Of a DNA stretch of 64,000 nucleotides, positions 26,260-58,663 are shown in pieces. Each line of letters starts with the position of its first letter. Position 1 is the stretch's first letter. A program made the translations under genes and the position numbers. This stretch comes from Strobilurus pachycystidiatus. Its lineage: Eukaryota; Basidiomycota; Agaricomycetes; Agaricales; Physalacriaceae. Below the pieces are notes generated by a model. That model was not told the origin of the DNA. It searched no databases and saw only the letters and a list, made by a program, of their open reading frames with translations. The stretch lies in contig JAHLMK010000006.1 of the NCBI GenBank assembly GCA_019915135.1, positions 682,001-746,000 of the forward strand, written 5' to 3'.

Positions 26260-26429
26260 TGATACGCAGGGTACTATTCCAGTACTAGAAACGGGGAATT
26301 TTGCGATTCCTGAACAGCCCAAAGACCTTAGGAACCTCCAGTCAAGTACTTAGGATAGAGCACGCAGGAGTTACTGCCTTGACGCGGGCAAGCCTCCAGG
26401 ACAAGGTCCAGGCGCCTTAACAAGTCCTT

Positions 26430-26902
26430 TAGACATGAGCACGAATGTTGGATATTTTCGGATATTTCAATTATATTCGTATCCGACATCCGAAGATATT
26501 CGGATGTCGGATGTCGAATACCTCTCGGATGTCGGATACCTCTAGAATGTCGGATGTCCACTTTCTGAGCAGACATCCGAGACATGATAGTGTGGGCTGT
26601 AGTTTATGAGTGTTCTGTTATAGCTATGTGACTCTAATTGACATTTACACACAGTGTAATATCATAACTTCATAGTAGGTATGGTTTCAGGCTGCTCTTG
26701 ATGCAATATTATGCCAATACTCATGGATATTCAGATATATTCGAATATATTCGGATGAATATTCACAAATATTCGGATATTGGACAATCATCTCGGATGC
26801 AATGTCGGATATTCATCCGAATACAAATATCTGGGTTTGAGGTGCACATATTCGTGGTTCGGATGTCGGATACATCCGAATAGACACTCGTGATCATGTC
26901 TA
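26430..26902. mobile_element. hAT-like non-autonomous DNA transposon (MITE)
   Basis: A 473-bp insertion present only in the 5' LTR. It is bounded by a perfect 8-bp target duplication AAGTCCTT (26422-26429 and 26903-26910). The uninterrupted site is visible in the 3' LTR near 41640. Terminal inverted repeats begin TAGACATGA, followed by G or T and then CACGA. There is no ORF of note. The interior is AT-rich with many copies of ATATTCGGAT and GGATGTCGGAT in both orientations, which could be transposase-binding subterminal repeats. An 8-bp duplication is typical of the hAT superfamily. Confidence 0.9.
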
Positions 26903-27592
26903 AAGTCCTTTAGGACAGGCGCGATCGAAACCTTCGATCACCTTCATCCGAATATCCTTATCCGCGCGTTGGATCCCTTTCAAGATCCCGTACCTTTGCG
27001 TGTACCTTGTACTACAGACGATGTGCTATAACCATTCGCACCCAAGGAGGGTCCAAAGGTCTCCAGGCGGTTCAGTTTGAGCGACCCAAGACCTGCGCAC
27101 CTCAACCCAAAGACCTGGAAGGTCCCGAAATAGTTCAAGGACGTCACAACCCTTTTGGGGAAACAATCTTCGGAGCTGTCAAGGACTCCGAACCGACGCC
27201 TTCCGCTATGCTGATCGATCATGATCCACGATCAAGGACCACCCCGAAAGCAGGGTGTATTACCACTTTAAGAAAGCACTCCCTCGTAGTGTCTGCGCTC
27301 AAAAGGACGTTCTTAACGATCCCCATCCAACCTATTCACAAGAAAGCAGGTGTCCGTAGGATCTTGCAACATAAAGATACCTAAGGATCGAAGTCCTTAT
27401 CGGACCTTGATCTCCTGGGCACAAGGATGGTACCATACCGCCAAGGTGGCGTATATGGCTAAAGGACCAAGCGGCCTGTCCGCAGTTGTTTCGACCAGGG
27501 ATAGCCAATAAGAATCCAGCTCTTGTATGACTCGAAAGTCCGATGTATCCGATCCTAGAATAGATGCTTACTCAGTAGGAACCCACCAGTAG

Positions 27593-27600
27593 TATAAAAG
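27593..27600 (+). promoter_or_regulatory. TATA-like box in the 5' LTR
   Basis: TATAAAAG in an otherwise mixed sequence, with the same motif at 42330-42337 in the 3' LTR. The position about 800 bp before the LTR end fits a U3/R boundary. No transcript start can be confirmed from sequence. Confidence 0.5.
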
Positions 27601-28414
27601 GGCCCAAAGGACCCATATTTCGGTAGCTTAGAGCCCCCTCCAGTAGCCGCTAGTCAGACGCAGCCATTGTAGTGAATCTATCTCGAGTTTCGACTCATTT
27701 CTGCAAAGTACACAAAGACCCCAAAGACCTTTCCAAGATTTAAAGACATCAGGTGTTGCCAAACTCCTTGAAAGACTCGAAAGAACCTTATTCCGACGTA
27801 CCAAGTCAAGTACCAACGAATCTACTTGGTGTTAGAACCTTGTATTCGCAAGAAGGCCGGTTTGCAAGTGGTTCTGCCCTGCACTCACGCTCTTTCGTGA
27901 AGTACTTCCCTTTGAGGAATAAGTCGAGTTTGAACGAGTGTTGTCAACGTCTGAGACACCTTTCGGAACCTTTGGTCCCGGTGCAAGACACTAGAAGTTT
28001 GGTTTAAGTGCAAGAAGGAGTCCTTATCGTTAGCAGTCCAGTGGCGTAAAACCTGCGGTAGCGGCCTGACGATTCCAAGACCAAGTTCTTGTACACCAGA
28101 GCACTTGATAGGTAGAAGCTACATTGCCTCGCGCTGTTTAAGGTCTTCATACGTCAAGAGGTTCGGCCTACGACTTCAAGGTTTTCTTGTGTCATTTCGA
28201 TCAGAATCCCTACACCCCCAAAAACAACTCGTAGTTTAACTACAGCGATTCGGAATACATCTCTATTTCTCCATTACCCAAAAGCACCTTGTTCTCTCGA
28301 ACCTTTGTGCACCCCAGCTCCCTTACAAGGAGTACTAGTTGTGATAAGGATTGATAGTGTGGTTAGACGATAGCTTCTTTTCAGAGGTCTATTCCGAACT
28401 TGCACATCATATTT

Positions 28415-28431
28415 TGGAGCCCACCGCGAGG
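28415..28431 (+). other. Candidate tRNA primer-binding site
   Basis: TGGAGCCCACCGCGAGG lies five bases after the LTR end and starts with TGG, the complement of a tRNA CCA end. The matching tRNA was not identified. Confidence 0.5.
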
Positions 28432-28476
28432 GGGTGTAAATTTTGATTTCGAAAGAGACTTCTAAGTCGACCTTGA

Positions 28477-30345
28477 GATCGGAATCTCCATAAACAAAAG
28501 ACACTGGCTGCAAGGAACTCTGGTCGTTACACCAACAGCCAGAACCGCGCAAATCCACAACCACCAAAAGGAGACCCAGTTATTGCCGGATCTTCAAATC
28601 CAGCAACCTCTGGTATCACTAGTCGCCTAAGAAGCAATCGCCCAATCGCCGGCTCACTTTACAACGGTTTACCTAGTGAAGTAGCTCAAGCACAGCGACG
28701 CTTTGCAGACCCGACTACTCCCAAGAACCAAAAGAAGAAACGTACGCCAGTACCACCTTCAACACCTACTGCCTCTAGGATCAGATCTTCTTCAGATCCT
28801 GAATCACCTTCGAGAACTCCAACCAGTACCCGAAGACATTCGGACTCTAGAACTTCGCCTAGTCCCGCATTTGTGACACCTTTCGGAAGTCCTTTGACTG
28901 ACCTTGAAGACCCCGAAAGTCCAGAACCTATTACCCCCTTCATTGACTTTAACCCGTCTACCCAAAACACGATACCAGTTCCAGTAATGGCAGTACGAGC
29001 AATTGTACCTTCCGAGGAGCTTAGTGCTGAAGCTAAGAAAGAGATCCAAGGCAAGAAGATTCCGATACCATTCTCAAGGGATGCTCCCAAATTCAAGGGA
29101 CACTCCGGCGATGATGTGAGGGAGTTCTTCACGATGTGCAACTGGATCTTTGACCAGACAGGAATCGCCGAACAAGGTACTAAGTTGGAAGTAGCCGCGC
29201 TATACGCCGGCCACGAACAACGCCTAAGGTGGCACAAAAACCCAGACTATCTGAAAGGTGTCTGGGCGGACTTCCAAGAATCAGTTCTTTCCTCATACTC
29301 AAAGGGAAAGAATGATCCTACATACGTCCCGGTCGACCTAAAGGATGCCTTGGAACCGTACCTGGCTAGGCCCATAGCCAACAAGCAAAAATGGGAAAGC
29401 TTTCAGCGCGAAGTGCTCCATATCATGGGACATCTTATCACGTCGGGAGAACTTACCAATAAGGGTGCTATAGAAGATATCAAGTCCTCTATCACAGAGG
29501 GAGTTTGGCATAATGTCCTTGGGGACCTCAGGCGTGATGCGAAAGCTAATGCAACAGCCGGGACAACCCCCACCTATGACTTCACGTTGTCAGAGGTCGA
29601 GGCAGCGATCTCCAACTACTTCTTGACCGATAAATGGATGAGCAAGAGTGCGAAGGATAGTCCTTATAACAGAGAACTTATTCCCGCCTCTACCACCCGA
29701 ATCAAGACAGAGGAGTTGGATGAATACCTGAATAGGGTAGCTAGCCTTCAGGACATTATCCAGAAAGGAGAAAAGGAACGCGAAGAGGCTCGCAAGGCTG
29801 ATCAGAAGATGATGGCAGAACTTCTCCATACCTTACAGCGTGGAGGTCCGCAAGGACTCCGCACACAAGGTTTTGTACAAGAAGCCTCGCCGGTTTATCT
29901 ACAAACACCTGCTCAAGGTGTCTCAGTCCCGACCAACTTACTGAACGGACTCTACAAAGCTCCTCCGGGTGCGTTCCCAGGAAACAAGTTCGTAGTTAAC
30001 GATGGAAGGTGCTACTTCTGTCGTGAACTAGGGCATATTGTAGCGAATTGTCCTACAAAGGAAATGTGCGAAAGCAATGGTCATATCTACAAGCCTGGTG
30101 GTACCAACATATATCATGTAACGAATGGAACTACTAGTCAACCTATTCAAAGGGTTAGTCCCAAGCAGCCTCTCAGCCCTTGGGAACAAGTCCAGAAGTT
30201 TCAACAAGAAAATGCACCTAAGGTATCGGCGTTCCAATCTCAAGAAGATGAGTTTGCACCTGAGGTCGCGATGTATGTTCAAACCCCAACCCAAGAAGAA
30301 GAGTTTGCCCCCGACGCCTATCAGGGTTTCGGCAGGGCTCGATGA
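28477..30345 (+). CDS. Gag polyprotein of the LTR element
   Basis: Structural protein that packages element RNA. The frame is open from 28477, and coding-like residues (NPQPPKGDPVIAG, then Ser/Pro/Thr/Arg-rich sequence) precede the first internal Met codon, so translation may start at a non-ATG codon or after splicing. The capsid-like core (PFSRDAPKFKGHSGDDVREF, then the helical region to about 29670) resembles the retrotransposon gag domain. A coiled segment (QKGEKEREEARKADQKM) and one CCHC zinc knuckle CYFCRELGHIVANC (30010-30051) follow. The C-terminus is Gln/Glu/Ala rich. The stop codon overlaps the start of the next ORF (ATGA at 30342-30345). Confidence 0.85.
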   Translation, partial: DRNLHKQKTLAARNSGRYTNSQNRANPQPPKGDPVIAGSSNPATSGITSRLRSNRPIAGSLYNGLPSEVAQAQRRFADPTTPKNQKKKRTPVPPSTPTASRIRSSSDPESPSRTPTSTRRHSDSRTSPSPAFVTPFGSPLTDLEDPESPEPITPFIDFNPSTQNTIPVPVMAVRAIVPSEELSAEAKKEIQGKKIPIPFSRDAPKFKGHSGDDVREFFTMCNWIFDQTGIAEQGTKLEVAALYAGHEQRLRWHKNPDYLKGVWADFQESVLSSYSKGKNDPTYVPVDLKDALEPYLARPIANKQKWESFQREVLHIMGHLITSGELTNKGAIEDIKSSITEGVWHNVLGDLRRDAKANATAGTTPTYDFTLSEVEAAISNYFLTDKWMSKSAKDSPYNRELIPASTTRIKTEELDEYLNRVASLQDIIQKGEKEREEARKADQKMMAELLHTLQRGGPQGLRTQGFVQEASPVYLQTPAQGVSVPTNLLNGLYKAPPGAFPGNKFVVNDGRCYFCRELGHIVANCPTKEMCESNGHIYKPGGTNIYHVTNGTTSQPIQRVSPKQPLSPWEQVQKFQQENAPKVSAFQSQEDEFAPEVAMYVQTPTQEEEFAPDAYQGFGRAR

Positions 30346-31514
30346 AGGAAGGAGTGCAGTTAGCACATACTCCTCCGGAGAGCCAGTTCACTGTAGAAAC
30401 TCGTCAGACTCGTCAGAGCGTAAAAGCACCTAGTGCTCCTGTGGATTCAACTCCACAAAAGAAGGTAACCTCATGGCCTAAGGACCGGGTGTCCGTGGTC
30501 ATTCCAAAAGCAGCGCCGCCTAAGGTATCATTCTCCAAGCCGGAAGTCACTCAAGAAGTAGAACCTGTTGACCAGGACCTTCTTGACGAAGTCCTGGCGA
30601 TGGAAGAACCAGACCCGGTGCCGCAACCAAAAGCAGATTCAACTCTGCCAGAAAAGAACCAACCAAAGGTTCAACCTAAGGAACCTAAGGTCAAGAGTTT
30701 CCAACGCCGTAGCCTGGCAGAAGAACTCTTGCACAAGAATCCCAGTTGGCGTGAAGCCTGGAAGTTCTTGTTACCCGAAGCGCTACTAGCTACCAACCCC
30801 CCTTGGCAGCAGAGCATTTCGGACTTCATCAGGAAACGCAACACGCCTGTGGCTGTATTCAAGACGGAAGAAGTGGCCGATACGGTCCAAGATCACTTCC
30901 AACCCGAGCTGTATTCAGTCAACTTTCATGAGCAAGGTGATTTACCTATTGGGGGAATTGTAGTCCACGATGCGGTAGAACAGTTTGTAAACCTTTCCGG
31001 AGGTCACTATACTGGTCCCTTTCAAATGATAAGTGGCAATATGGCGCCGGAAAATGCAGATCTACGAACCTTTTGGCCCTTGATCAACAAGAATGGTAAA
31101 AAGGAGAGTTTAGTGGATGGTGGGTCGCAGATCGCCTCCATTTCGCTCAAGGCAGCATTGGAACTAGGAATAGCCTATGATCCCACTTTCACCATTACTA
31201 TGGAAAGTGCGGACAAGGGACGAACCAGTACCTTGGGATTGGCTCGTAACATACCTTTTGACTTTGAAGGAATTGTCTATTACCTTCAGTTGCATGTGTT
31301 GCAGGATCCCGCCTATGAGGTCCTACTGGGACGACCTTTCGAGATCGTTTCAAACCTGGTCATCACCAACCTTCCCAACGGGAACGCAATCGGAACCCTT
31401 ACGGATAACACCAATGGGAAGAAGTTATCGCTACCTTCTTACCGTCGAGGACAGATCCCAAGACATATGATTCCAGGAGGACAAACGGGTTTTCACGGGA
31501 ACCTAAGGACGTAG
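30342..31514 (+). CDS. Aspartic protease ORF of the LTR element
   Basis: A separate ORF between gag and pol, beginning with the ATG that overlaps the gag stop. The N-terminal half is a Lys/Pro/Glu-rich linker, followed by a helical region (SLAEELLHKNPSWREAWKFL). The retropepsin-like core has the active-site loop ESLVDGGSQIASISLKAALE (Asp-Gly-Gly in place of the usual Asp-Ser/Thr-Gly) and the flap and second half with VLLGRPFEIVSNLVI, a typical LLGRP-type motif. It ends at TAG 31512-31514. The pol frame is -1 relative to it and a slippery heptamer lies 19 bases before the stop. Confidence 0.82.
   Translation: MKEGVQLAHTPPESQFTVETRQTRQSVKAPSAPVDSTPQKKVTSWPKDRVSVVIPKAAPPKVSFSKPEVTQEVEPVDQDLLDEVLAMEEPDPVPQPKADSTLPEKNQPKVQPKEPKVKSFQRRSLAEELLHKNPSWREAWKFLLPEALLATNPPWQQSISDFIRKRNTPVAVFKTEEVADTVQDHFQPELYSVNFHEQGDLPIGGIVVHDAVEQFVNLSGGHYTGPFQMISGNMAPENADLRTFWPLINKNGKKESLVDGGSQIASISLKAALELGIAYDPTFTITMESADKGRTSTLGLARNIPFDFEGIVYYLQLHVLQDPAYEVLLGRPFEIVSNLVITNLPNGNAIGTLTDNTNGKKLSLPSYRRGQIPRHMIPGGQTGFHGNLRT
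31487..31493 (+). promoter_or_regulatory. Candidate -1 ribosomal frameshift site
   Basis: GGGTTTT sits in the protease frame as G GGT TTT, matching the X XXY YYZ rule. A shift of -1 here reads through the protease stop (31512) into the pol frame without another stop. No other in-frame fusion of protease and pol is seen. Confidence 0.6.
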
Positions 31515-34500
31515 GAAATTCCTATGAAGAAGCCGTGTTGATTCTTGAAAGGACACCAGAAGGAAACATCGAAGTAAAGCAAAGTTGGATACCTGGTGAT
31601 AACAGGGAGACCTTCGGGGAAGGGGACTTAACGTCCTTATACATGAAGAAGTCACCCAATAGGGTTCATCAGGCAGCCAAAAGGCTAAGGAAGCAACACG
31701 CCTTCATGCATGCATCGATGCACCAAGCATCGACACATATGACTGTCCCAGAACATATGGTGACACCTACGGGACTATTAAAGGTCCCAACCAAGACTCA
31801 AGGCTTTCGCAAGGTATTCAATATCAACCAGATTGCGGAAGACCAAGAAGAACTTAAGTCCTACGCTACTGCGACTTTGAACCTCTTTTATGGGGTACCA
31901 AAGGAGCTAGAACAAGTCTTTACGGGCTTGTCGGTAACCTTACCAAAGGATTACATGGCGGAGGCCCAACAGGAGTTCCTAAGGTTGGAAAGTCAGATCC
32001 CTAAGAGGGGTGTATTCGTAGGAAAGAAGTACAAGCCAGTGGCCTTGAAAACCAAAGCTCACCTTGGAACCTTACCTGAAGAATTCAGGATCAAGCGCCA
32101 CATTCATGGAGACCCACTAGCTGGGATGCCGGAATTAGTACCTGATCCACCACCCTTCGTACCCACAGGTAGGTATACTGCCGAAAGGAGGGAACAGATA
32201 CAAGCCGACCACGTCGGGGACTTCCTGACGGATGCAGAAAGACGGATTATAGACTCCATCTTCTGTAACCAGAACGAAGGCTTTGCCTGGGAAGAATCTG
32301 AGAAAGGACACTTCAAACCAGAGTTCTTTCCACCAGTGGATATCCCGGTAATACCGCACACACCTTGGGTGTTAAGGAATATACCAATTCCACCAGGAAT
32401 CTATGACGAAGTCTGTAAGATTATCAAACACAAACTAGACTCGGGCGTGTATGAGCCTTCGAACTCCTCATACCGCTCCAGGTGGTTCTGTGTTGTGAAG
32501 AAGGATGGAAAGAAACTTCGCCTAGTGCACAGTCTGGAACCACTCAATGCGGTGACCATTGCGCACTCAGGGTTACCTCCAGCCACGGAGGAACTAGCGG
32601 AGTCCTTTGCAGGACGAAGTTGTGGAGGGACCTTGGACCTGTTCGTTGGATATGACGAACGGCTCCTTGCCACCGCGTCTCGCGATATGACCACCTTCTC
32701 AACACCTTACGGAGCGTTAAGGTTAAAGACCTTGCCAATGGGCTGGACTAATTCAGTACCTATCTTTCATGACGATGTTACAACGATTCTCAAGGATGAA
32801 ATACCAGCCTTCACCAGACCTTATATCGACGATGTGCCCGTCCGCGGGCCCGCCACGCGATATGAACAAGCTGATGGTACCTACGAAACGCTTCCAGGTC
32901 ATCCTGAAGTAAGGCGTTTCGTTTGGGAACACCTTGTGAACATGAACAGAATCATACAACGAATGAAACATGCCGGAGGGACCTTTTCTGGTCACAAGGC
33001 TATCATTTGTGCAGAAGAAATTGTGGTAGTGGGACATGTCTGTACCTACGAAGGTAGAAAGCCAGCTGAAGATCGCGTTAAGGTGATCTCGGATTGGCCC
33101 CCTTGTAAAGCGCTCACGGAAGTCCGTTCGTTCTTAGGAACAGCTGGAATCTTCAGAGCATTCGTAAAGGACTACTCTAAGAAGGCGTTACCTTTGACCA
33201 GGTTAACCAAAGACATTACCAAGTTCAGATGGACAGACGAGGAGCAGGAAAGTATGGATACCTTAAAGGAAGCCATACGAACTTGTCCGATGCTGAAACC
33301 ACTGAATTATGAATGGTCCACGCCAATCACGCTGTCGGTAGACACCTCTTACCAGGCAGTAGGTTTCTATCTGTCCCAGGTAGATCCCAAGGACCCTAAG
33401 AAACGATACTTTGCCAAGTTCATGTCTCTGACATTGAACGAAAGAGAGGCAAGGTACTCGCAAGCCAAGCGAGAACTATTCGGGCTCTTCAGAGCTCTGT
33501 CCGCGTGCAAGTACTACCTTCTAGGTTGTAGAAAGTTAGAAATTGAAGTAGATGCAAAATACATCAAGGGCATGTTATCCAACGTAGACTCCTTAGCGAA
33601 CGCAAACCTGCAAAGGTGGGCTGAGGAGATCTTGATGTATCACTTCACGCTTGTACACGTACCAGGAAAGGTTCATGGCCCGGATGGTTTAAGTCGCCGT
33701 CCAGCTTCAGAGCATGATATAGTAGTACCCAGACCTCAAATAAACATAGAGGATGACGAGGTCAATACCTTTGAGTACCAGGAGCCTAAAGGTCTGCCTA
33801 TAGAGGAGCAACCGTTAGACTTTGACACTTTCAGGAATGACATCGACAGTAGGGGAGGCTATTTCCAGGAAATAGTACGAAGTCCTTTACCAGACCATAT
33901 AAAGGTTTCTAAAGTGGTAAGGACTTCGGGACTAGTCAATGTTAAGGATATCGAAGGTTGGATGCATATCACGGAGTTCCCGGAGCTCAATAAGAGCAAA
34001 AGGGAGCGTTTGTGGGAAACCTATTTGCCCAAACTTCAACCTTACTTACAATCGGAAGATGTACTTGAGGACGAAGACTTGGAGAAATGGAGCAAAGACT
34101 TCTTTGTCCAGCATGAAAGGTTATACCGAACCCATTCGGACTCCCACCCCCGTCGAGTGCTACTTCCAAATGAACGAATCCCGGTTTGTAAAGCTCTACA
34201 CGACCGGGCAGGACATAAAGGACAATATTCCGTGTTACAACTCATCATGAAGCGATTCTGGTGGCCAGGTATGGAGGTCGACATACGATGGTATGTAAGG
34301 ACCTGTGTACTATGTCAGAAACGCCAGAAACGTAACATAAAGGTTGCACCAACGATTACTTCAACTCCAGGTATCTACGAAAGGGCTTATATAGACACCT
34401 TCCGGATGCCTAAGGCAGGAGAGGAATCCACCCGAAAGAAACGGCCTTCAAAATGGGCCGGCTTCAACGCTGTGACCGTAGCAAGGTGTGGATTAACAAG

Positions 34501-35380
34501 TTGGCCAGAGGCAAGGGCTCTCAAAGAAGAGACCGCCGAGTCACTGGGAGAATGGATCTTTGAGGACATTCTATGCAGGTGGGGTTGTATCAAGGAAATT
34601 GTAACCGACAATGGGCCAGCAATCAAGAAGGCCTTAGTACATATTGAACAGAAATATGGTATTACAGGTATCTTGATCACGGCGTACAATAAGCAAGCCA
34701 ACGGAAAGGTTGAACGAGGGCACTGGGATATCCGTCAATCTCTCTTCAAGGTATGCAAGGGTAAACCCGAGCAATGGCCAGAGTTCCTACATGAGGTCCT
34801 TTGGGCAGAGCGCATTACCATAAAGAGAAGTCTAGGTACTTCAGCGTTCCAGGCAGTAACCGGTTGTGAACCAATCATGCCAATGGACCTGGAGGAATTG
34901 ACTTGGCTGGTCGAAGCACCAGGCCGACTGGTCTCCCATTCGGACCTTATTGCCTTCCGAGCTAGGCAGCTCATCAAGCACAAGGAAGATACTGTCAAGC
35001 TAAGGTCAAAGGTCCTTCTAAATAAACAGAAGGCCGCGGCGAAGTTCCTGGAGGACTTCCAGAACAGTATCCCTCGCTACAAATTCAAAACTGGTGAACT
35101 AGTACTAGTAAGGAACACTAGGATTGAATCAGAAATGAATGCGAAGTTCAAGGAAAGGTTTATGGGACCTTACGCGGTAGTAACAAGGACCTCGGCAGGA
35201 AACTATGTGGTCTGCGAGTTGGACGGAACGATCTACAAAGACAAGATAGCTCAGTTCCGTGTAATACCTTTTGTATCGCGACGAGATCCTATAGACCTTG
35301 GAAAACAGTTCTTTGATCGACTACACTTCATAAGTAAGCCGATCACGAAGACCTTAGACGTCCTTGCCAGAACTACGTGA
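31493..35380 (+). CDS. Pol polyprotein: reverse transcriptase, RNase H, integrase
   Basis: The order RT - RNase H - integrase identifies Ty3/gypsy. RT: SRWFCVVKKDGKKLRLVHSL, GTLDLFVGYDE (first Asp), LPMGWTNSVPIFHDDV and the catalytic box YIDD at 32822-32833. RNase H: LSVDTSYQAVGFYLSQ, REARYSQAKRELFGLFRAL and EVDAKYIKGML. Integrase: an H-H-C-C zinc region (HDRAGHKGQYSVLQLIMKRF and VRTCVLCQKRQK), then the DDE core with AYIDTFRMP, EIVTDNGPAIKK and NGKVERGHW. The C-terminus holds a small SH3-like part (GPYAVVTRTSAGNYVVCELD), with no chromodomain seen. The ORF is uninterrupted for 1281 codons from 31535 and open from the slippery site, so the element may still be active. Confidence 0.95.
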   Translation, partial: SREPKDVGNSYEEAVLILERTPEGNIEVKQSWIPGDNRETFGEGDLTSLYMKKSPNRVHQAAKRLRKQHAFMHASMHQASTHMTVPEHMVTPTGLLKVPTKTQGFRKVFNINQIAEDQEELKSYATATLNLFYGVPKELEQVFTGLSVTLPKDYMAEAQQEFLRLESQIPKRGVFVGKKYKPVALKTKAHLGTLPEEFRIKRHIHGDPLAGMPELVPDPPPFVPTGRYTAERREQIQADHVGDFLTDAERRIIDSIFCNQNEGFAWEESEKGHFKPEFFPPVDIPVIPHTPWVLRNIPIPPGIYDEVCKIIKHKLDSGVYEPSNSSYRSRWFCVVKKDGKKLRLVHSLEPLNAVTIAHSGLPPATEELAESFAGRSCGGTLDLFVGYDERLLATASRDMTTFSTPYGALRLKTLPMGWTNSVPIFHDDVTTILKDEIPAFTRPYIDDVPVRGPATRYEQADGTYETLPGHPEVRRFVWEHLVNMNRIIQRMKHAGGTFSGHKAIICAEEIVVVGHVCTYEGRKPAEDRVKVISDWPPCKALTEVRSFLGTAGIFRAFVKDYSKKALPLTRLTKDITKFRWTDEEQESMDTLKEAIRTCPMLKPLNYEWSTPITLSVDTSYQAVGFYLSQVDPKDPKKRYFAKFMSLTLNEREARYSQAKRELFGLFRALSACKYYLLGCRKLEIEVDAKYIKGMLSNVDSLANANLQRWAEEILMYHFTLVHVPGKVHGPDGLSRRPASEHDIVVPRPQINIEDDEVNTFEYQEPKGLPIEEQPLDFDTFRNDIDSRGGYFQEIVRSPLPDHIKVSKVVRTSGLVNVKDIEGWMHITEFPELNKSKRERLWETYLPKLQPYLQSEDVLEDEDLEKWSKDFFVQHERLYRTHSDSHPRRVLLPNERIPVCKALHDRAGHKGQYSVLQLIMKRFWWPGMEVDIRWYVRTCVLCQKRQKRNIKVAPTITSTPGIYERAYIDTFRMPKAGEESTRKKRPSKWAGFNAVTVARCGLTSWPEARALKEETAESLGEWIFEDILCRWGCIKEIVTDNGPAIKKALVHIEQKYGITGILITAYNKQANGKVERGHWDIRQSLFKVCKGKPEQWPEFLHEVLWAERITIKRSLGTSAFQAVTGCEPIMPMDLEELTWLVEAPGRLVSHSDLIAFRARQLIKHKEDTVKLRSKVLLNKQKAAAKFLEDFQNSIPRYKFKTGELVLVRNTRIESEMNAKFKERFMGPYAVVTRTSAGNYVVCELDGTIYKDKIAQFRVIPFVSRRDPIDLGKQFFDRLHFISKPITKTLDVLARTT

Positions 35381-36038
35381 CCTTGAGTGACCTTGAGCAC
35401 CCAAGAATGAACTACAGCTTCAAAGGAGGCTAAGGTACCATACCAGATGACGGGGACGTCATCAGAAAAGTAAAGAAGGGAATAGAGGGACACCGGTCCA
35501 TTTATTCAAAGACTATAAAAATTTTATTTAAGACTTATTCTGTGCCCAGCTGGCTACAATAGTAGCTAAGGTAGCTGTGAACTAAGAACAGAATAAGGAA
35601 ACAAGACAAGGCACGAGGCATCAGGGAAGTGGCGGGGTGCGAACCAAGAAAGCTTAAAGGTGATGAAGCCGTAAAGTGATGTGGTAAGCGCAAAAAGGAA
35701 GCACCACACACCGAACCACCACCATGACAATGCCCACAAGCTCGCCCCAAGATACCGAGCGCAAGGAGGACGCGAAGGTAAGCAACCAACGCAATCAGCG
35801 CCAGGGCGGCAGACGAACTTACTTACCAAAAGGAGCAGTCGCCGCCGCCGCCGCCAACGTCGCCACAAGGACATCAGGAGCCTCCCGCAGCTCAGGAGGA
35901 AGGGGAAAAAGAGGCGCTAGCGCAGGAACAGGTGAGTGACGGGCAACGACGCGTAAAAGTGCGAGAACGCTCACCCCGACCACTTTCTCGCGCTAGCCCC
36001 CACCCATCGCCTGTGAAGCTAGGCCCGACCACATCAAA
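35381..36038 (+). other. Pol to accessory-gene spacer with a short basic ORF
   Basis: The base composition changes here from the AT-richer pol to the GC-rich accessory gene. A 71-codon ORF from an ATG at 35724 (MTMPTSSPQDTERKEDAKVS, then Arg/Gly/Ala rich) ends at a donor-like GTGAGT near 35933. It could be an upstream exon of the 602-aa gene, but I found no join that stays open. A TATAAAAATTTTATTT stretch lies near 35514-35529. Confidence 0.4.
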
Positions 36039-37847
36039 ATGACCCGTCCCCTGTTTAACTACAGCGGCTTCCTCACCAACATGACCGCACCACCGGAGCT
36101 GGACGCAGGGATCAGTCTGCGCCTGGCCGAGTCGTTGTGTGCCAAACCGCCGTCAACGCGGGACATCCTGAACGAGGCCGGCTACAAGGGGTATCTCCGT
36201 AACGGAGTCTTCTGGTTGACCTTCCAGGACGCGCTCGAATCGACCCCAGCGGGCAAGGCCACTCCGCTGGAACGCGTCGAGATGGCGCTGAGCGCCGCGT
36301 GGCGCGACAACACGTCCTACCGGAGGCAGGTCCGCCCGGTTCATGAAATCACCTTCCTAGACAACGACCGCATCGCCCCCGAGCTCGCGATCCGGCTTTC
36401 AGAAGACGACGCCCAGCGTTGTTTTCTGGAGCTGGATCACCTCTGGAACTTTGTGCACGACCAGGACCGGGCTAATTTATTCTGGGGCGCGCTGCTCGTA
36501 GAAATGCGAAGACAGCGCGACGGGACCGCCATCCAAGGAACGTTCTACAAAACCATGGACAACCTGATCGAGAGCGCGATAACCAAGCTCGGAATCGCCA
36601 ACTACGAACGCGACGGAACGCCCAGCCTCGACAGCAAAGTCGAGGACGAGGATACGCCGCGCCCCACGATGCAACAGCTCGCGCAGGAGGCGTCGCCCAG
36701 TCCCCGCGACTCGCGAGCCCCGTCTCCGGCAGCCTCGTCACACCATGAACCCACGCCCGAGATGGAACCTCCTCAGCGCCGACCAGTTGTCGCAGCGGGT
36801 AAAGGGGGCCCCAAATCGGTGACCAAGTACGTCCGCCGAACCATCGCGCCGCTAATCCTTGCTGACGCCTCGACCAGGCCGAAGGTCGCCGTCGTGAAGG
36901 TGGAGCCCAAGGACAAGGACAAGGATGTCGCCCCCACCCGGAAGACCTCTGTCGCACGCGCCACCACCGGTGGAAGCCAAAAGCGCAAGTTCGTCGAGGA
37001 GGAACCAGAGGAGGAGGACGAGTTGGAAGAAGACGCCGAAGCTAGCGACGAGGAGGAGGACGACTTCGTCCTCGACGTACGCGACAAAACTAACCCGCGC
37101 ATCCCCCTTCACCGCGACGACGGTGTCTGTGTCCCCTGCATCAAGCAGCGGTTGACCTGCACCTACTTCCGGATTCACGCCACGCCCGCCGAGAAGAACA
37201 ACAGCTTCACGTGCGACCAATGCAAGGAGAAGGACGGGCAGCACGGTCCGTGCTGGGTCGCGTGGAGGCGAGGACAGGTCCCCGAGCCGTGGAAGGAGGT
37301 CGCGTTGAAGGTCCGCGCCCAGTTGCAGGCTGTGGCGAGGAACAAGCCCGACTCTCAGATCCGGGCCCGGCGCCACCAGGACTACTCCGACGCCGCGCAA
37401 GCTATCGCCAAGGAAGCGGACCAGCGGTGGAAGGAGGAGAAGCAGCGGAAGAAGGACGAGCCCGCGGCGAAACGTCGTCGCGTCGAGAGCGCCGCCGGGA
37501 AGAAGGGCAAGGCCAAGAAGGAAGAGACGTCGGACGAAGAGGGAACCGGCGACTCCGACATCGAGGAGGTCCACGCGCCCCGCACCCGCCTCCAAAAGGG
37601 AAAGGTTAGCGCCGCCCCGCCTCCCGCCTCGACCAAGTCCTCGAAGGGGGCCACCACTTCGATCAGCGCGGTCCAACGACAGGACAAGGGCGAAGGAGCC
37701 AGCCGTCAAGGTGCGACGTCCTCCGCCTCCACCAGCCGCGTCGACCCCGCCGAGGACGTGGACAAGGTCCTGGCGTTGTACTTCTCCCTGAGTGAGAAGA
37801 GCCGAAGGAAATTCAGGAAGATCGCCGAGATAGCGGTGGGACGTTAA
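36039..37847 (+). CDS. Sense accessory protein (602 aa) with a Zn2Cys6-like Cys cluster
   Basis: An intact intronless ORF behind pol, in the position where env sits in some elements, but with no signal peptide or membrane segment. The N-terminal 190 residues look globular (MTRPLFNYSGFLTNM, YKGYLRNGVFWLTFQDAL, FLELDHLWNFVHDQD). Next comes a Ser/Pro/Thr-rich stretch, a basic patch (KYVRRTIAPLI) and an acidic run (EEEPEEEDELEEDAEASDEE). The Cys region is CVPCIKQRLTC, 17 residues, then CDQCKEKDGQHGPC, close to a Zn(II)2Cys6 cluster with a long linker. Bipartite basic signals (KRRRVESAAGKKGKAKK) suggest nuclear location. The C-terminus ends in a helix (ALYFSLSEKSRRKFRKI). Composition is GC-richer than gag and pol, suggesting capture. 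A DNA-binding role is inferred, not shown. Confidence 0.75.
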   Translation: MTRPLFNYSGFLTNMTAPPELDAGISLRLAESLCAKPPSTRDILNEAGYKGYLRNGVFWLTFQDALESTPAGKATPLERVEMALSAAWRDNTSYRRQVRPVHEITFLDNDRIAPELAIRLSEDDAQRCFLELDHLWNFVHDQDRANLFWGALLVEMRRQRDGTAIQGTFYKTMDNLIESAITKLGIANYERDGTPSLDSKVEDEDTPRPTMQQLAQEASPSPRDSRAPSPAASSHHEPTPEMEPPQRRPVVAAGKGGPKSVTKYVRRTIAPLILADASTRPKVAVVKVEPKDKDKDVAPTRKTSVARATTGGSQKRKFVEEEPEEEDELEEDAEASDEEEDDFVLDVRDKTNPRIPLHRDDGVCVPCIKQRLTCTYFRIHATPAEKNNSFTCDQCKEKDGQHGPCWVAWRRGQVPEPWKEVALKVRAQLQAVARNKPDSQIRARRHQDYSDAAQAIAKEADQRWKEEKQRKKDEPAAKRRRVESAAGKKGKAKKEETSDEEGTGDSDIEEVHAPRTRLQKGKVSAAPPPASTKSSKGATTSISAVQRQDKGEGASRQGATSSASTSRVDPAEDVDKVLALYFSLSEKSRRKFRKIAEIAVGR

Positions 37848-38232
37848 TAGCGTCCCGCCGCTATGTTTTTCTTTATATATGTACATGCAACCTAGTCACA
37901 GTGCCAAAATGGACACTCATATACGCATCGCCCGCCCCGTTGTATTTTATATAAAAATTTACAACTTCTTGTACTCAAAGAACCGTGTGGAAACACTAAG
38001 GAAACCAGAACAAAGACCTTAGTTGAAACCTTAAGTCAAGGGGAGAGTCCAGGACTCTCCTTGATATACCAAAGGTTGCAAAGGTCGGAGGCTAAGGACC
38101 TTGGAAGTCGAAAGGGCCCACAAGGAACTGCGTTGCAAGTAAAGTAATACAGGCAAAAGCGATGTGACTAAGGACAAGTTGTAAGGAATAAAAAGAGAGG
38201 CGACCTTTAGGTCAAAAGAAGTCATCTAAGGA
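37848..38232. other. Spacer between convergent accessory genes
   Basis: 385 bases between the ends of the sense 602-aa gene and an antisense gene. An AT-rich patch (TTGTATTTTATATAAAAATTTAC near 37940-37963) may hold the polyadenylation signals of both. No coding seen. Confidence 0.45.
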
Positions 38233-39456
38233 CTAAGCAAAACGACTCCAATCAGGAGGGACCGCAAGGTTCGCAAGGCGCGCATAGAAAGGTCCTGCGT
38301 GGCCAAGGTTGATTGCTAACATACTAGCAGCAAGGAGTTCGTAGTCTACTTCGGTGGCCTCCGACCAGTCGATGAGCCAGAGTAGTGGATCGATGATAGG
38401 CAGCGACTGGTTGGGGCGCTGGAAACACAGAAGTTACAAACGGACCTCAAACTACGAAGTTGTTCACGGACCCGATTGGCGGGAAGGTCGATCTCGGGGA
38501 TCAACCGACGCATATTGGGAGGTCTATCCAACGCGTAGACGTCGTCCCAGCCGTAAAGAGCAGAGTTCTGACGTTGGAACTCTGGCCACCACTTCATAAC
38601 CGTGACAAGGTCGGCAGGAAGGTCCCCATACTGAACAGGAAGGACCTTCAGGTCGTCAGACCCGATGTAAAGCGAGCGAAGGAGTGTGGAAAAGCCGGAG
38701 TAACCACCAAAGTGGGCCTCGACCTACTCCTAAGGTCAGCGCCGACCACAAGACATGAAAGGAAGAGACCAGGTTTAACTCACCATGAAAGGTCCGATGA
38801 ACTCTTGGGTAAACCAAGGGTGACTCGCAAGGATGTCCATGTTCAGGTCCCCCAGGTGGAAGCGGGCGCCTTCACCGTCAAAGGTATTGCCTTCGGCGAA
38901 CCAAGCCTTGCAAAGTTCGACGGCGGTGTAGTACAAAGGAAAGAAGTGCGCCTTGAAACCGTGAGGAATGGCCCCGTTCTGGAAGTGAAAAGCGGGTTCC
39001 CAGATATAACGAAAGCGGACCTAAGTACCATCCGTTAAACGAGAAAGGTGTCGAGACAAAATCAACTGGACTGACCAGAACGTGCAAAAGATAGCGCAAG
39101 GTTGGGACGTCTAGAGGTTCGTCGCGCCCAAAGGCATGAACCGGAGGCTTGAGCTGGGGAAGGAGGCGAGTGTCGTCCTCCGTAGCTAAGGTCCCATCCG
39201 GATGACGGACTACCGCAACGAAGTAGCGTGTATAGTTATACATCTCCATGGCGCAGCTCAGTGCAAGGTCCGCTGTGACTAAGTCATGTTGAAAGGAGGT
39301 CAACGGCGAGCGAAGTCGAACGCCTTGAATGCGCGTATCTGCAAAGGAAGGCAGGACGGGTGCGGGCATGATCAAAGATGAGATTCCTGTCCCCAGGACC
39401 GACTTAAAAGAGGACCCCTCGTCAGTCGAAGGTCCGAACGAACCGATAAAATGCAA
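38233..39456 (-). CDS. Antisense accessory gene 2 of the LTR element, three introns
   Basis: Unknown protein of roughly 340 residues encoded opposite to gag-pol. Exon 1 starts at the ATG at 39456 (MHFIGSFGPSTDEGSSFKSV) and ends HVL at a GTCAGT donor. A 58-base intron ending GTACTTAG restores the frame into RFRYIWEPAFHFQNGAIPHG and LYYTAVELCKAWFAEG. After GPFM a GTGAGT-CTTAG intron leads to VEAHFGGYSGFSTLLRSLYI and MKWWPEFQRQNSALYGWDDV. A last short intron (GTCCGT to TTCCAG) gives RPNQSLPIIDPLLWLIDWSE and the stop TAG at 38233-38235. All joins stay in frame and there are no nonsense codons, so the gene looks functional. No known domain recognised. Confidence 0.72.
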
Positions 39457-39744
39457 AGTTTAGGCGCCACCTATCTAAAGGTAGGTACGATCGGCGATAG
39501 CCGATCGAACTAAGTTCGATCTTAGACCTACCAAGGTGCGGTCAGGAAAAACTTTAAGGGTTCAAATCGAAAGGAGTTGGATTATGCACCAACTGGGCCT
39601 AGAGTAGTCTAAGGAAACAAAGTGACTACCGCTCCTACAAGTAGAGAAGAAATCCGAAACCAGTATAAAGACGAAGTAGAGAAAAACTATGAGTAGTACT
39701 GGTTAAGACTTGGCGAAAGCTAAGCTAAAGAAGGACCTTGTAGT
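39457..39744. other. Spacer between the two antisense genes, likely promoter of gene 2
   Basis: 288 bases upstream of the start at 39456 (minus). It contains the nested inverted repeats at 39480-39532 and otherwise no feature. Confidence 0.5.
39480..39532. repeat. Two adjacent perfect hairpins inside a larger inverted repeat
   Basis: CGATCGGC (39488-39495) and GCCGATCG (39500-39507) form an 8-bp stem with a GATA loop. ATCGAAC (39504-39510) and GTTCGAT (39514-39520) form a 7-bp stem with a TAA loop, overlapping the first by four bases. GGTAGGT (39480-39486) and ACCTACC (39526-39532) enclose both. It lies 24-76 bases upstream of antisense gene 2. Confidence 0.75.
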
Positions 39745-41279
39745 CTACTGAGCCTGGTCTATCGCGTCTAAGGCCGAGATATAAAGGTCGCGAGTCGACT
39801 GCAAGACTTGGATACGACCCCGAATCTCGTTGAAGGTCGAGATAATGTCGTGCCGGTACTGGCGTTCCAAAATGACCAAGTTGGGCGAGATGTTGGGATC
39901 GTCAAGACCAGACAACCTTGACATACGCTTGTGGACTTGGGCCAAGGCAGCAGACAGACCATTGATGTACTGGTTCGCTAAGGGGAAGTAACCAGGAATC
40001 AACAAGGCAAACCAAGGAGCGAGGAAGAAGCACCTTACCGCCTTCAAGTTGTTTAAGAACGACGGGTTCGACCCCAAAGGTCGAAGGCCGGGCCGCCTTT
40101 ACAACCCGGCGAGCGTTCTCATCGTTAAGCTTACGCTTAGGAGGAGCTTCTTGACCATTGATCGCGCCCAAGGTTTGAAGGGCTTTCTGGTAAACACGGG
40201 CGTTAATGTCCATACCGGGAAGAGCTGCGAAAGGAAGGTAACGGACGGAAGATGACTATTAAGGAAGTCATAAGGACGTCCGGGACAAACATAGGATTCA
40301 AAGGAACGTACCGCTTCGGCTTCCTTTGACAAGGAATTGGCGAGTTGGAGCTGGCGAAAGGCTTCAATAAAGGAAGATGAGACTGGCAAAGAAATTGAGC
40401 GCACAGTATCACCGACGACGACAACGGAGTCCTCACCGTCGCTCTCGCCAGCTGCCACATCGTCAGCCCAATTAAAGTACTCCGGACGAAAGAAGCGCGC
40501 ACAAGAGTCGGGATCCATCGCGACGTCGCCGTCTCCCGCCTCGGCTCGTTTCTCCATGGCCTCGGTAACGACCTCGGGCGATTTCTTCGTCTTCTAAGCG
40601 AAGACATCCAAAGGTTACAGTAGGAAACCGACGAGTAACGAACGGACATACCTTGCCTTTCTCAAGCTTGTCCGGCTTGAAATAAGCGTTATCCGGATGC
40701 ATAGGGTGACCCGGGGACAGGCCAGGGAAGTGGGCGTTAGACGCCTTCTTGCAGCTGCTCACCAAAGGTTGGAGGATATGAGCGATGTGGTGCGTCGGCG
40801 TCTGAGGGTGAATCCCCAGCAGGTGTACCAGCATCCCTACATAGAGGCGAAGGTTGAAAAAGAACACCGCCATGTCCGTCGACACCTTGGAACCATTCGG
40901 AAAGGTGCGAAGGTCATGGGCGACGGCCTAAAGAAAACAAGGACAGGATGAAGTCAGGATCAGGAAAAGAACACAGCGAAGGAGTACACACAAGGACTCT
41001 CTCCATGATCTTGTCAACATAGCCGGTGATCTCCAGTGCCACGTCGGGATTCGAACACGCCTTCTTGAGGTCCAGACGATGGACCTTGGGAATGATGAGC
41101 GTAAGATGCATGCCGAGGTACATAAGGAAGTCGGGTGTGTTGGCTGGAGGGTCGTAGTCGAGCGCATAAGCGACAAGACCAGCACCAAGGTCGCGCGTAG
41201 TGATCAGGTCCTTCGCGGACGGAACGTGCGGCGTTGTGGGAAGCAGTTTTGCGATGGGGGTCCAAGTTTTGGGAGCCAT
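39745..41279 (-). CDS. Antisense accessory gene 1 of the LTR element, four introns
   Basis: Unknown protein of about 400 residues on the strand opposite to gag-pol. Exon 1 starts at the ATG at 41279 (MAPKTWTPIAKLLPTTPHVP) and ends ERVL. An intron GTGTGT-CTTTAG joins it to AVAHDLRTFPNGSKVSTDMA and a hydrophobic RLYVGMLVHLLGIHP. A GTATGT-GCTTAG intron leads to KTKKSPEVVTEAMEKRAEAG and the acidic GESDGEDSVVVVGD. A 52-base GTACGT-AATAG intron leads to SSSVRYLPFAALPGMDINAR. A GTAAGG-CTTAG intron gives NQYINGLSAALAQVHKRMSR and a helical tail ending DAIDQAQ. All four joins keep frame and no stop intervenes. Function unknown; the tail may be a coiled coil. Confidence 0.75.
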
Positions 41280-41465
41280 GATAGGATAAAGGCAGGAATG
41301 AAAGGTCTGAGGACAAGTCCCAGAACCTTTTATAACGGAACGAAGTTAGGCAAAAGAGGGTCCATCGGGCGATAGAAACCAAAAGGGGACTTCGTCACGG
41401 CGGCCTGGTACCCAGGATAAAGGTTCTGAACCACCAAGGACTATGTCGCGGACGACATTTCATAA

Positions 41466-41477
41466 GTCAAGGGGAGA
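41466..41477 (+). other. Polypurine tract before the 3' LTR
   Basis: GTCAAGGGGAGA directly precedes the TG of the 3' LTR, the usual place of the plus-strand primer. Confidence 0.7.
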
Positions 41478-43146
41478 TGATACGCAGGGTACTATTCCAG
41501 TACTAGAAACGGGGAATTTTGCGATTCCTGAACAGCCCAAAGACCTTAGGAACCTCCAGTCAAGTACTTAGGATAGAGCACGCAGGAGTTACTGCCTTGA
41601 CGCGGGCAAGCCTCCAGGACAAGGTCCAGGCGCCTTAACAAGTCCTTTAGGACAGGCGCGATCGAAACCTTCGATCACCTTCATCCGAATATCCTTATCC
41701 GCGCGTTGGATCCCTTTCAAGATCCCGTACCTTTGCGTGTACCTTGTACTACAGACGATGTGCTATAACCATTCGCACCCAAGGAGGGTCCAAAGGTCTC
41801 CAGGCGGTTCAGTTTGAGCGACCCAAGACCTGCGCACCTCAACCCAAAGACCTGGAAGGTCCCGAAATAGTTCAAGGACGTCACAACCCTTTTGGGGAAA
41901 CAATCTTCGGAGCTGTCAAGGACTCCGAACCGACGCCTTCCGCTATGCTGATCGATCATGATCCACGATCAAGGACCACCCCGAAAGCAGGGTGTATTAC
42001 CACTTTAAGAAAGCACTCCCTCGTAGTGTCTGCGCTCAAAAGGACGTTCTTAACGATCCCCATCCAACCTATTCACAAGAAAGCAGGTGTCCGTAGGATC
42101 TTGCAACATAAAGATACCTAAGGATCGAAGTCCTTATCGGACCTTGATCTCCTGGGCACAAGGATGGTACCATACCGCCAAGGTGGCGTATATGGCTAAA
42201 GGACCAAGCGGCCTGTCCGCAGTTGTTTCGACCAGGGATAGCCAATAAGAATCCAGCTCTTGTATGACTCGAAAGTCCGATGTATCCGATCCTAGAATAG
42301 ATGCTTACTCAGTAGGAACCCACCAGTAGTATAAAAGGGCCCAAAGGACCCATATTTCGGTAGCTTAGAGCCCCCTCCAGTAGCCGCTAGTCAGACGCAG
42401 CCATTGTAGTGAATCTATCTCGAGTTTCGACTCATTTCTGCAAAGTACACAAAGACCCCAAAGACCTTTCCAAGATTTAAAGACATCAGGTGTTGCCAAA
42501 CTCCTTGAAAGACTCGAAAGAACCTTATTCCGACGTACCAAGTCAAGTACCAACGAATCTACTTGGTGTTAGAACCTTGTATTCGCAAGAAGGCCGGTTT
42601 GCAAGTGGTTCTGCCCTGCACTCACGCTCTTTCGTGAAGTACTTCCCTTTGAGGAATAAGTCGAGTTTGAACGAGTGTTGTCAACGTCTGAGACACCTTT
42701 CGGAACCTTTGGTCCCGGTGCAAGACACTAGAAGTTTGGTTTAAGTGCAAGAAGGAGTCCTTATCGTTAGCAGTCCAGTGGCGTAAAACCTGCGGTAGCG
42801 GCCTGACGATTCCAAGACCAAGTCCTTGTACACCAGAGCACTTGATAGGTAGAAGCTACATTGCCTCGCGCTGTTTAAGGTCTTCATACGTCAAGAGGTT
42901 CGGCCTACGACTTCAAGGTTTTCTTGTGTCATTTCGATCAGAATCCCTACACCCCCAAAAACAACTCGTAGTTTAACTACAGCGATTCGGAATACATCTC
43001 TATTTCTCCATTACCCAAAAGCACCTTGTTCTCTCGAACCTTTGTGCACCCCAGCTCCCTTACAAGGAGTACTAGTTGTGATAAGGATTGATAGTGTGGT
43101 TAGACGATAGCTTCTTTTCAGAGGTCTATTCCGAACTTGCACATCA
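41478..43146 (+). repeat. 3' LTR (1669 bp)
   Basis: TG...CA boundaries match the 5' LTR. It lacks the MITE, so it shows the empty site AACAAGTCCTTTAGGACAGG. Only one other base difference was noticed (C42824). It holds TATAAAAG at 42330-42337. Confidence 0.95.
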
Positions 43147-58000: not shown

Positions 58001-58663
58001 GCGCGTAAAGCCGTCGGGGAGGCAGTGGGGGCGTACGTAGTGGGCGTTCGGGACTCGATGTTACCCAGACTCCCGCAGCTAGCGCTTACCATAGGGAGGA
58101 GGAAACGACCACTGCCTTTGGCCATGGCCCGCGATCATCTGCGCTACGTTCACCAAACGGACAATCTCTACCAGGCCTTCGCGTCGCTCATCTATGTCTT
58201 TAACGTATCGGATTATCGTGTAGAGGCCTTGGCACATATCTGGCCGCACACCCTTACGTCATGGAGATACTGCACTGATCAGCTTGGATGGGTGTATGGT
58301 GCCAAGCAGCGCGACTTTATGGCCGTACTGGATAGCCCGTCTGGTGGGGTGGCGCTTGGCTGCTCGGCCACTGATGCTGAGGATGCAGGCCGTTCACTGG
58401 ATCATACGCTTGGGGGTTGTAAGTCTCTTTCTTGGCAGGTGCGTGTACTTCTTTCGACGTAGAGCTTGAGCGCTAAACGACGGTTTCAATAGGGAGAACT
58501 CCTTCGGTCCCTCGAGTTGCTGCAGTCGTTGTTGGTACAGCGAGCGGACCCGGATACAGATATGCACCACATGCCGCCTATGAGGCTTGCTATGGAGTTA
58601 TTCCTACGGAGTCTCAAGGTTGAGGATCCGAACAGTGTCGTAAACCCGGATCGCAACGATTGA
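55094..58663 (+). CDS. DUF6535 membrane protein
   Basis: Agaricomycete-specific family of unknown function. Exon 1 (55094 to about 55709) is a disordered Ser/Pro/Asp-rich tail. A GTAGAC intron ending CTCAAG leads to the conserved start ARIWRTYLDESDIYDKEM and NWTDTISMLLIF. After the next intron the DUF6535 core gives AALFSAILATFVVESLQAL, then NAIWLVSLVLSLTTSLTVIL, VRQWLYAYES and PLIIGLLPVFLHVSLILFLV: four membrane helices in the usual order. The long C-terminal part (about 600 aa) looks like an alpha-helical repeat and is cytosolic by inference. A last intron (58439-58491, GTGCGT-AATAG) adds GELLRSLELLQSLLVQRADP before the stop at 58661-58663. Such genes occur in large families in mushroom genomes. 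Confidence 0.85.

Follow-up and report, generated by a model that had tools for sequence, protein, structure and literature searches.

Intron-rich antisense genes in a lineage of Ty3-type retrotransposons of Strobilurus pachycystidiatus

The window analyzed here, a stretch of 64,000 nucleotides (nt) from the basidiomycete Strobilurus pachycystidiatus (G000:C6:682001-746000; contig JAHLMK010000006.1), contains a Ty3-type long terminal repeat (LTR) retrotransposon that carries two multi-intron genes, A and B, on the strand opposite to gag and pol. We regard it as nearly certain that A and B are genuine genes of this element, under selection and spliced; the genome-wide comparisons behind this statement were made within one assembly of 51.8 Mb. 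Antisense genes as such are known, but the literature searched yielded no case of paired multi-intron antisense genes that retain their intron positions from one element family to another. Introns of retrotransposon genes should be lost upon reverse transcription. In A and B, seven or eight introns have outlasted repeated cycles and the divergence of families; the antisense position of the genes can account for this, and in a sister family introns seemingly persist even in a sense gene. How the RNAs of an element evade the spliceosome can be tested here on a natural case. The system is also a fungal model for the antisense genes of LTR elements and, through a natural deletion derivative, supplies a ready comparison without the genes.

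Structure, conservation and selection of A and B

An earlier note on this sequence had placed two antisense genes between pol and the 3′ LTR, with three introns in A, four in B and every join in frame. The positions of both genes were confirmed (Table 1), with the refinement that the ATG of A lies at 39369 and that 39370-39456 is a leader, because A of a related family (family 2) begins at the homologous methionine. All joins do keep the frame, and it is the number of B introns that may have to be raised to five. If the homologue of a 54-nt segment in exon 3 is left unremoved, the reading frame hits a stop in family 2, where it measures 53 nt, and in family 3. The corresponding segment of the window is in frame, and B therefore has four or five introns, with a product of 413 amino acids if it is removed. 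This segment is probably a fifth B intron that is optional in the window; its variation among 11 sequences (2 of 54 sites) is uninformative. If kept, it encodes an acidic stretch with DSVVVVGD, which we take to resemble a SUMO-interacting motif, and similar residues occur in family 2. A frameshift that was first called in B of family 2 has been re-read as the fifth intron.

The window element belongs to family 1, which we compared with three related families. Between families 1 and 2 the protein identity amounts to 49% for A and 61% for B, and all seven introns recur in equal phase. Six of them are located at the identical residue (as given in Table 1), while B intron 2 follows residue 188 in family 1 and residue 186 in family 2. 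At eight of the 11 family 2 loci, pol (77–87% identical) and a sense gene C (~30%, tblastn) are followed by A and B in antisense orientation. Family 3 (C21, L039) is represented by a full LTR element with LTRs of 1831 bp that are 99.9% identical, in which gag (28% identical) and pol (66–71%) are followed by C, A and B in the order of the window. With hhalign, its A can be aligned to the A profile across 192 columns (probability 98.3, E 1.8e-14). Two introns of this A agree, and ambiguity is confined to the third, where the aligner calls a 67-nt phase 1 intron with a canonical 52-nt intron adjoining. For B of family 3, the family 1 query returns introns at 96/0, 203/0, 281/0 and 354/1 (residue/phase), and the family 2 query yields an extra fifth intron of 54 nt in phase 1. 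The open reading frames (ORFs) of the family 3 element show the same gag-pro-pol frame order as those of the window, and extra ORFs of 325 and 247 codons lie between its pol and C (G000:C21:12630-14456; L039:830-2656), neither having a Pfam match above cut-off.

In family 4 (L040, G000:C3:2808501-2817400) only B is convincing, and the 8.9 kb examined showed neither LTR nor pol. With the family 2 query, and in family 2 numbering, the introns of this B are placed at 96/0, 190/0, 237/1, 264/0 and 333/1, a few residues from those of family 2. The model also includes three extra intron calls and one frameshift, and the family 1 query disagrees at the first intron; the B model of family 4 is therefore rough. 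A loss of intron 4 that had been considered for this gene was withdrawn, as a 48-nt intron is located there. L040 further holds scattered A-like pieces and a minus-strand ORF of 726 codons.

A search for other copies carrying the same genes, which had been proposed in the earlier note, revealed at least 36 close copies of A. From these 36 matches, 21 full family 1 copies were sampled (at least 93% identity over at least 1219 of 1224 bases; 40 of 45 candidates scored), and copy integrity was assessed with a frameshift-tolerant spliced aligner on 38 loci. Stops or loss of frame, which the note would have counted against the genes, affect only a minority of the copies sampled. A is open in 19 of the 21 copies, including that of the window, and broken in L027 and L028; L019, which is more distant and degraded, and the partial L026 stand outside this set. 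B is open in 11 of 14 complete or nearly complete family 1 copies (window, L022, L027, L028 and L029-L038), the three broken ones being L022, L028 and L027, which is cut at residue 30. Seven family 1 loci that cover only B residues 97–431 (L001-L004 and L006-L008, L001 being the window copy) are open there, and L005 covers residues 361–431. In family 2, A is open at 10 of 11 loci, with L017 truncated, and B under the five-intron model at eight of 11 (L009-L016), with L018 altered at its end, L017 frameshifted and L020 truncated. For L019 (84% DNA identity, diverged proteins) mutation resembling repeat-induced point mutation was considered and rejected, since the spliced aligner sees many frameshifts and stops, for which ordinary decay is enough.

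The distribution of substitutions follows the codons, with third positions varying most and introns to a similar degree. Variable columns at codon positions 1, 2 and 3 amount to 7.1, 4.3 and 17.6% in family 1 A, with 16.0% in the introns (19 sequences; L027 and L028 omitted), and to 3.2, 0.7 and 11.3% in family 1 B, with 11.2% in the introns (11 sequences; L022, L027 and L028 omitted). These alignments show zero exon gaps and intron gaps of 1–2 nt, in part by construction because they consist of intact copies only. The ratio of nonsynonymous to synonymous substitution rates (dN/dS), also suggested as a check in the earlier note, lies between 0.07 and 0.21 and indicates purifying selection. These values are pooled NG86 estimates over pairs that are not independent, calculated without L017, L019, L020, L026-L028 and the deletion derivatives: 0.158 for family 1 A (171 pairs, 19 copies), 0.093 for family 1 B (153 pairs among 18 copies of more than 300 codons, seven of them partial and L022 frameshifted), 0.068 for family 2 A (28 pairs; nine copies, eight distinct) and 0.208 for family 2 B (nine copies), or 0.154 when the five-intron model is used (eight copies). 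Between the families, dN reaches 0.47 for A, where dS is saturated, and 0.30 for B, where dS is 1.49.

Gene C and the survival of introns

The sense accessory gene mentioned in the earlier note corresponds to gene C (Table 1). Its six cysteines have a Zn2Cys6-like arrangement and are all kept in one family 2 homologue of 36% identity. The pattern of the Zn2Cys6 (Gal4-type) cluster is CX2CX6CX5-12CX2CX6-8C; the cysteine loops of C exceed it in the two sequences compared, and Pfam gives no match. C of family 3 aligns to the window C over 42 columns at the cysteine region (hhalign probability 88). C of the family 2 locus L010 is a single ORF like that of the window, and the reading of L013 contains a stop.

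Gene C of family 3 (L039:3923-5381), with TATAAAAG upstream, reads through only after the removal of two introns on the sense strand (53 and 47 nt). A likely third intron of 60 nt is in frame and stop-free, hence not required. Of 27 matches, 22 span at least 501 of 521 bp and include these introns. If this splice model, which was built without comparative support for its splice sites, is right, sense-strand introns have survived as well. The explanation offered in the earlier note, that introns outlast retrotransposition because they lie antisense, fits families 1 and 2, but C of family 3 would keep sense introns in 22 copies; antisense orientation would therefore be sufficient, not necessary, for the survival of introns.

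A possible role in trans and its alternatives

In our preferred reading, which we give a probability of roughly 45% for the mechanism as a whole, A, B and C are regulators that the element encodes and that act in trans in the nucleus. As an accessory module, the three genes would be resident in one lineage of large Ty3 LTR retrotransposons. We infer that A and B are transcribed and spliced: transcription would proceed from the minus strand, probably from own promoters adjoining each gene, and host splicing would produce two mRNAs. The genomic RNA would arise from the plus strand, where the introns of A and B would not be splice sites and so would cross reverse transcription unchanged. The proteins might then act in trans, likely in the nucleus, on element transcription, silencing or integration, with C having the look of a zinc-cluster DNA-binding protein. 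Tax and HBZ of human T-cell leukemia virus type 1 (HTLV-1) would be their analogues.

TATA boxes are found upstream of B in families 1 and 2 and of A in family 2, and TATA-like sites precede both genes in family 3, which suggests internal antisense promoters. A nuclear role is suggested by the cysteines of C together with the basic motif KRK-X(6-8)-[KR]R, which is present in B of four families. The palindrome between the two genes (Table 1) appeared as an attractive target of C, CGG-N6-CCG being the site pattern of Gal4-type regulators, yet it was set aside as weak in a shuffle test. For the best inverted repeat of the A-B interval this test gave 3/200 in family 1, where the best repeat is an overlapping neighbour of the palindrome, 25/200 in family 2 and 0/200 in family 3, where the repeat is a different one.

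Several observations weigh against such a regulatory role. Pfam returned no match to A, B or C (A and B at E up to 5), and the PDB sequences no match to A or B and only two, at E 0.2, to C, for which a single-sequence structure model (mean pLDDT 41) was too poor for searching. The nuclear assignment derives from the basic motif of B and the cysteines of C, and family 1 A is preceded by a weak TATA-like site only (CTTTTAAG). Moreover, no C was found beside A at three of the 11 family 2 loci (L009, L012 and L017). L009 matches another pol at no more than 26% identity, and L017 holds a 67% gag; the three loci are therefore judged to be rearranged or nested, L009 and L017 having a further element beside or within them. 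A deletion derivative cuts both ways: the junction at which 35629 is fused to 40723 in L021, L023, L024 and L025, with 11 bp of microhomology, and which removes C, A and residues 168–431 of B, is spanned at at least 15 sites on 11 contigs (15 of the 40 matches scored among 96 candidates). Because derivatives without the three genes exist at so many sites, the trio looks dispensable in cis, so that any need for it can be met in trans; the derivatives being common, movement may not depend on its products in any way. The four derivative copies have different 3′ flanks, and in three of them pol is open over 1323 codons. The junction occurs in two sequence types among the four, and the extra substitutions shared by L021, L023 and L024 favour its descent, while repeated deletion at the same microhomology could in part explain why it is shared.

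A bolder version, which we hold only tentatively, is that the lineage runs a retrovirus-like two-strand programme of intron-containing genes, with A and B in antisense, a sense C in family 3 that has a TATA box of its own and keeps two or three introns in genomic copies, and an optional B intron that may switch protein forms. If this were true, full-length RNA would escape splicing while internally started messages would be spliced.

The alternative that survives best, unlikely as we consider it, is that both genes are real and under selection yet target the host cell or rival elements, for example by countering silencing or other retrotransposons, and not the element's own expression. A, B and C (49, 61 and 36% identical) diverge faster than pol (77–87%, eight family 2 loci), as conflict proteins often do, and copies without the genes exist. 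Pfam shows no similarity to described families, defence libraries being outside that search, and nothing separates this explanation from the regulatory one.

It is distinctly more doubtful that A and B are captured host genes which kept their introns through antisense uptake, as the earlier note had considered. The introns are of the ordinary, short, spliceosomal kind, and an antisense insert would keep them; however, the trio is common to families with pol 66–87% identical, and a capture would therefore predate those families. All 58 matches in a genome search with a segment of A fall into family 1 or 2, and all 100 with a segment of family 3 A into families 1, 2 or 3, assigned by identity class; the A-like pieces of family 4 were missed by these searches, so an equally divergent host paralogue would escape. 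For B, the same four families appear among the matches listed. Since A is without detectable paralogue outside these families, a recent capture of a host gene is unlikely, and the suggestion of the note found no backing.

We consider it improbable, too, and slightly less credible than host capture, that the antisense transcripts matter rather than the proteins, by forming double-stranded RNA or by interference that tunes the genomic RNA. Overlap is inherent in the arrangement, as both genes lie entirely inside the genomic RNA unit, but the low dN/dS values and the three-base pattern speak for selection on proteins. That the ORFs are spurious, or are left over from a different transposon that was nested in an ancestor, can practically be dismissed: the missing domain matches would suit this, but introns, codon periodicity and gene order are conserved across families, direct repeats of at least 60 bp between 25000 and 45000 are the LTRs only (inverted repeats were not searched there), and spurious ORFs in particular are ruled out by the cross-family introns and the codon-position pattern.

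Known antisense genes and the host element

Antisense ORFs of plant gypsy elements, to which the earlier note had referred, are on record (PMC11963269, PMC7264820), as is a fungal case (PMC8365987). In the plant Retand-type Ty3 elements and in Grande/RIRE2, antisense ORFs (aORFs) lie between pol and the 3′ LTR. Their function is described as unknown, an own promoter is reported for Grande gene23, and TRP28 is found in the antisense ORF of 97% of Retand clusters (PMC11963269, PMC7264820). With A and B these elements share the placement of the antisense gene, the long region between pol and the 3′ LTR, conservation across families and a suspected regulatory role; in our lineage, numerous copies as well as related families have a conserved antisense gene at this place. 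A and B contain three and four to five introns, respectively, whereas the plant aORFs come without a mention of introns, the word 'intron' being absent from the main text of PMC11963269 and PMC7264820. Retand proper further differs by the TRP28 domain (PF04195) in its aORF, to which neither A nor B has a counterpart in the Pfam search.

In 2011, Zhao reportedly described an antisense gene, brtn, in Boty-like elements. This gene of the Boty-like elements of Botrytis is cited in PMC7264820 and PMC8365987, and the case resembles ours as a fungal retrotransposon with an extra antisense gene, although Boty has one such gene. The HBZ gene of HTLV-1 is a spliced antisense regulator gene with two spliced forms, whose transcripts start in the 3′ LTR (PMC1459196). 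It is likewise an antisense gene of an LTR retroelement; the splicing of A and B is predicted from splice sites and coding conservation, the TATA box of B lies outside the LTR in contrast to the start of HBZ, and Pfam finds no bZIP domain in A or B, unlike in HBZ. A group I intron of ribosomal DNA carries an antisense homing endonuclease gene with a 47-nt spliceosomal intron, the splicing of which was shown in vivo (PMC9548176). This, too, is a mobile element with an antisense gene in need of the spliceosome, but of a different element class and with one intron. PMC12477816 was rejected as a precedent, because its opposite-strand gene sits in a DNA transposon and not in an LTR element. No intron-rich antisense genes in LTR retrotransposons turned up in the literature searched, from which subscription papers were mostly absent and which is no proof of absence.

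Table 1. Coordinates of the retrotransposon, its genes and associated sequence features in the window
Feature	Position	Strand	Details
Ty3-type LTR retrotransposon	26260-43146	+	two LTRs, CCGC on both sides
5′ LTR	26260..28409	+	starts TG, ends CA; contains later insert
Probable primer-binding site	28414..28431	+	TTGGAGCCCACCGCGAGG; named by position directly after 5′ LTR
gag ORF	28477..30345	+	stop to stop; zinc knuckle; PF21890 E 3.3e-4, below that family's cut-off
pro-region ORF	30264..31514	+	-1 frame relative to gag; named by ORF position and frame
pol ORF	31409..35380	+	-1 frame relative to pro ORF; PF17919, PF17917, then PF17921 downstream
Gene C	36039..37847	+	single ORF, 602 amino acids; CX2CX6CX17CX2CX9C, Zn2Cys6-like
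Gene A	38233..39369	-	322 amino acids; four exons: 39369-39076, 39020-38784, 38723-38472, 38418-38233
A intron 1	39021..39075	-	55 nt, GTCAGT..TAG, phase 0 after residue 98
A intron 2	38724..38783	-	60 nt, GTGAGT..TAG, phase 0 after residue 177
A intron 3	38419..38471	-	53 nt, GTCCGT..CAG, phase 0 after residue 261
Weak TATA-like site upstream of A	39403..39410	-	CTTTTAAG; family 2 counterpart CTATAAAAACG at roughly equal distance
Palindrome	39489..39506	.	GATCGG-N6-CCGATC; between B stop and A start; also in family 2 with another core
Gene B	39745..41279	-	431 amino acids; five exons: 41279-40992, 40927-40652, 40593-40312, 40255-40039, 39977-39745
B intron 1	40928..40991	-	64 nt, GTGTGT..TAG, phase 0 after residue 96
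B intron 2	40594..40651	-	58 nt, GTATGT..TAG, phase 0 after residue 188
B optional intron (probable)	40383..40436	-	54 nt, GTGAGG..CAG, phase 1; inside exon 3; GT-AG, in frame, no stop
B intron 3	40256..40311	-	56 nt, GTACGT..TAG, phase 0 after residue 282
B intron 4	39978..40038	-	61 nt, GTAAGG..TAG, phase 1 after residue 354
TATA box upstream of B	41327..41334	-	TATAAAAG; within element, outside LTR; CTATAAAAAC similarly placed in family 2
Polypurine tract	41469..41477	+	AAGGGGAGA; adjoins 3′ LTR
3′ LTR	41478..43146	+	1669 bp

The carrier, which the earlier note had called gypsy-type, is indeed a Ty3/gypsy element with two LTRs, a target-site duplication (CCGC), a primer-binding site assigned by position and a polypurine tract. 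The Pfam domains of pol, with RNase H within 608–744 and the integrase zinc domain at 922–975, follow the Ty3 order; at E 1e-3 Pfam did not report the reverse transcriptase domain, and it returned zero matches for the pro-region ORF. The element is young, and its LTR pair differs solely in one substitution (28087/42824) and in an insert of the 5′ copy. This insert of ~470–480 bp at 26433-26901 has inverted ends with AGTCCTTTAG repeated on either side and is probably a small DNA transposon that arrived after the element. Slippery heptamers in the correct phase are located in both ORF overlaps, GGGTTTC at 30324 in the gag/pro overlap (30264-30345) and GGGTTTT at 31487 in the pro/pol overlap (31409-31514), and two -1 shifts are reminiscent of betaretroviruses. 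Outside the element, a large ORF with DUF6535 (E 1.3e-45) occupies 55751-58459.

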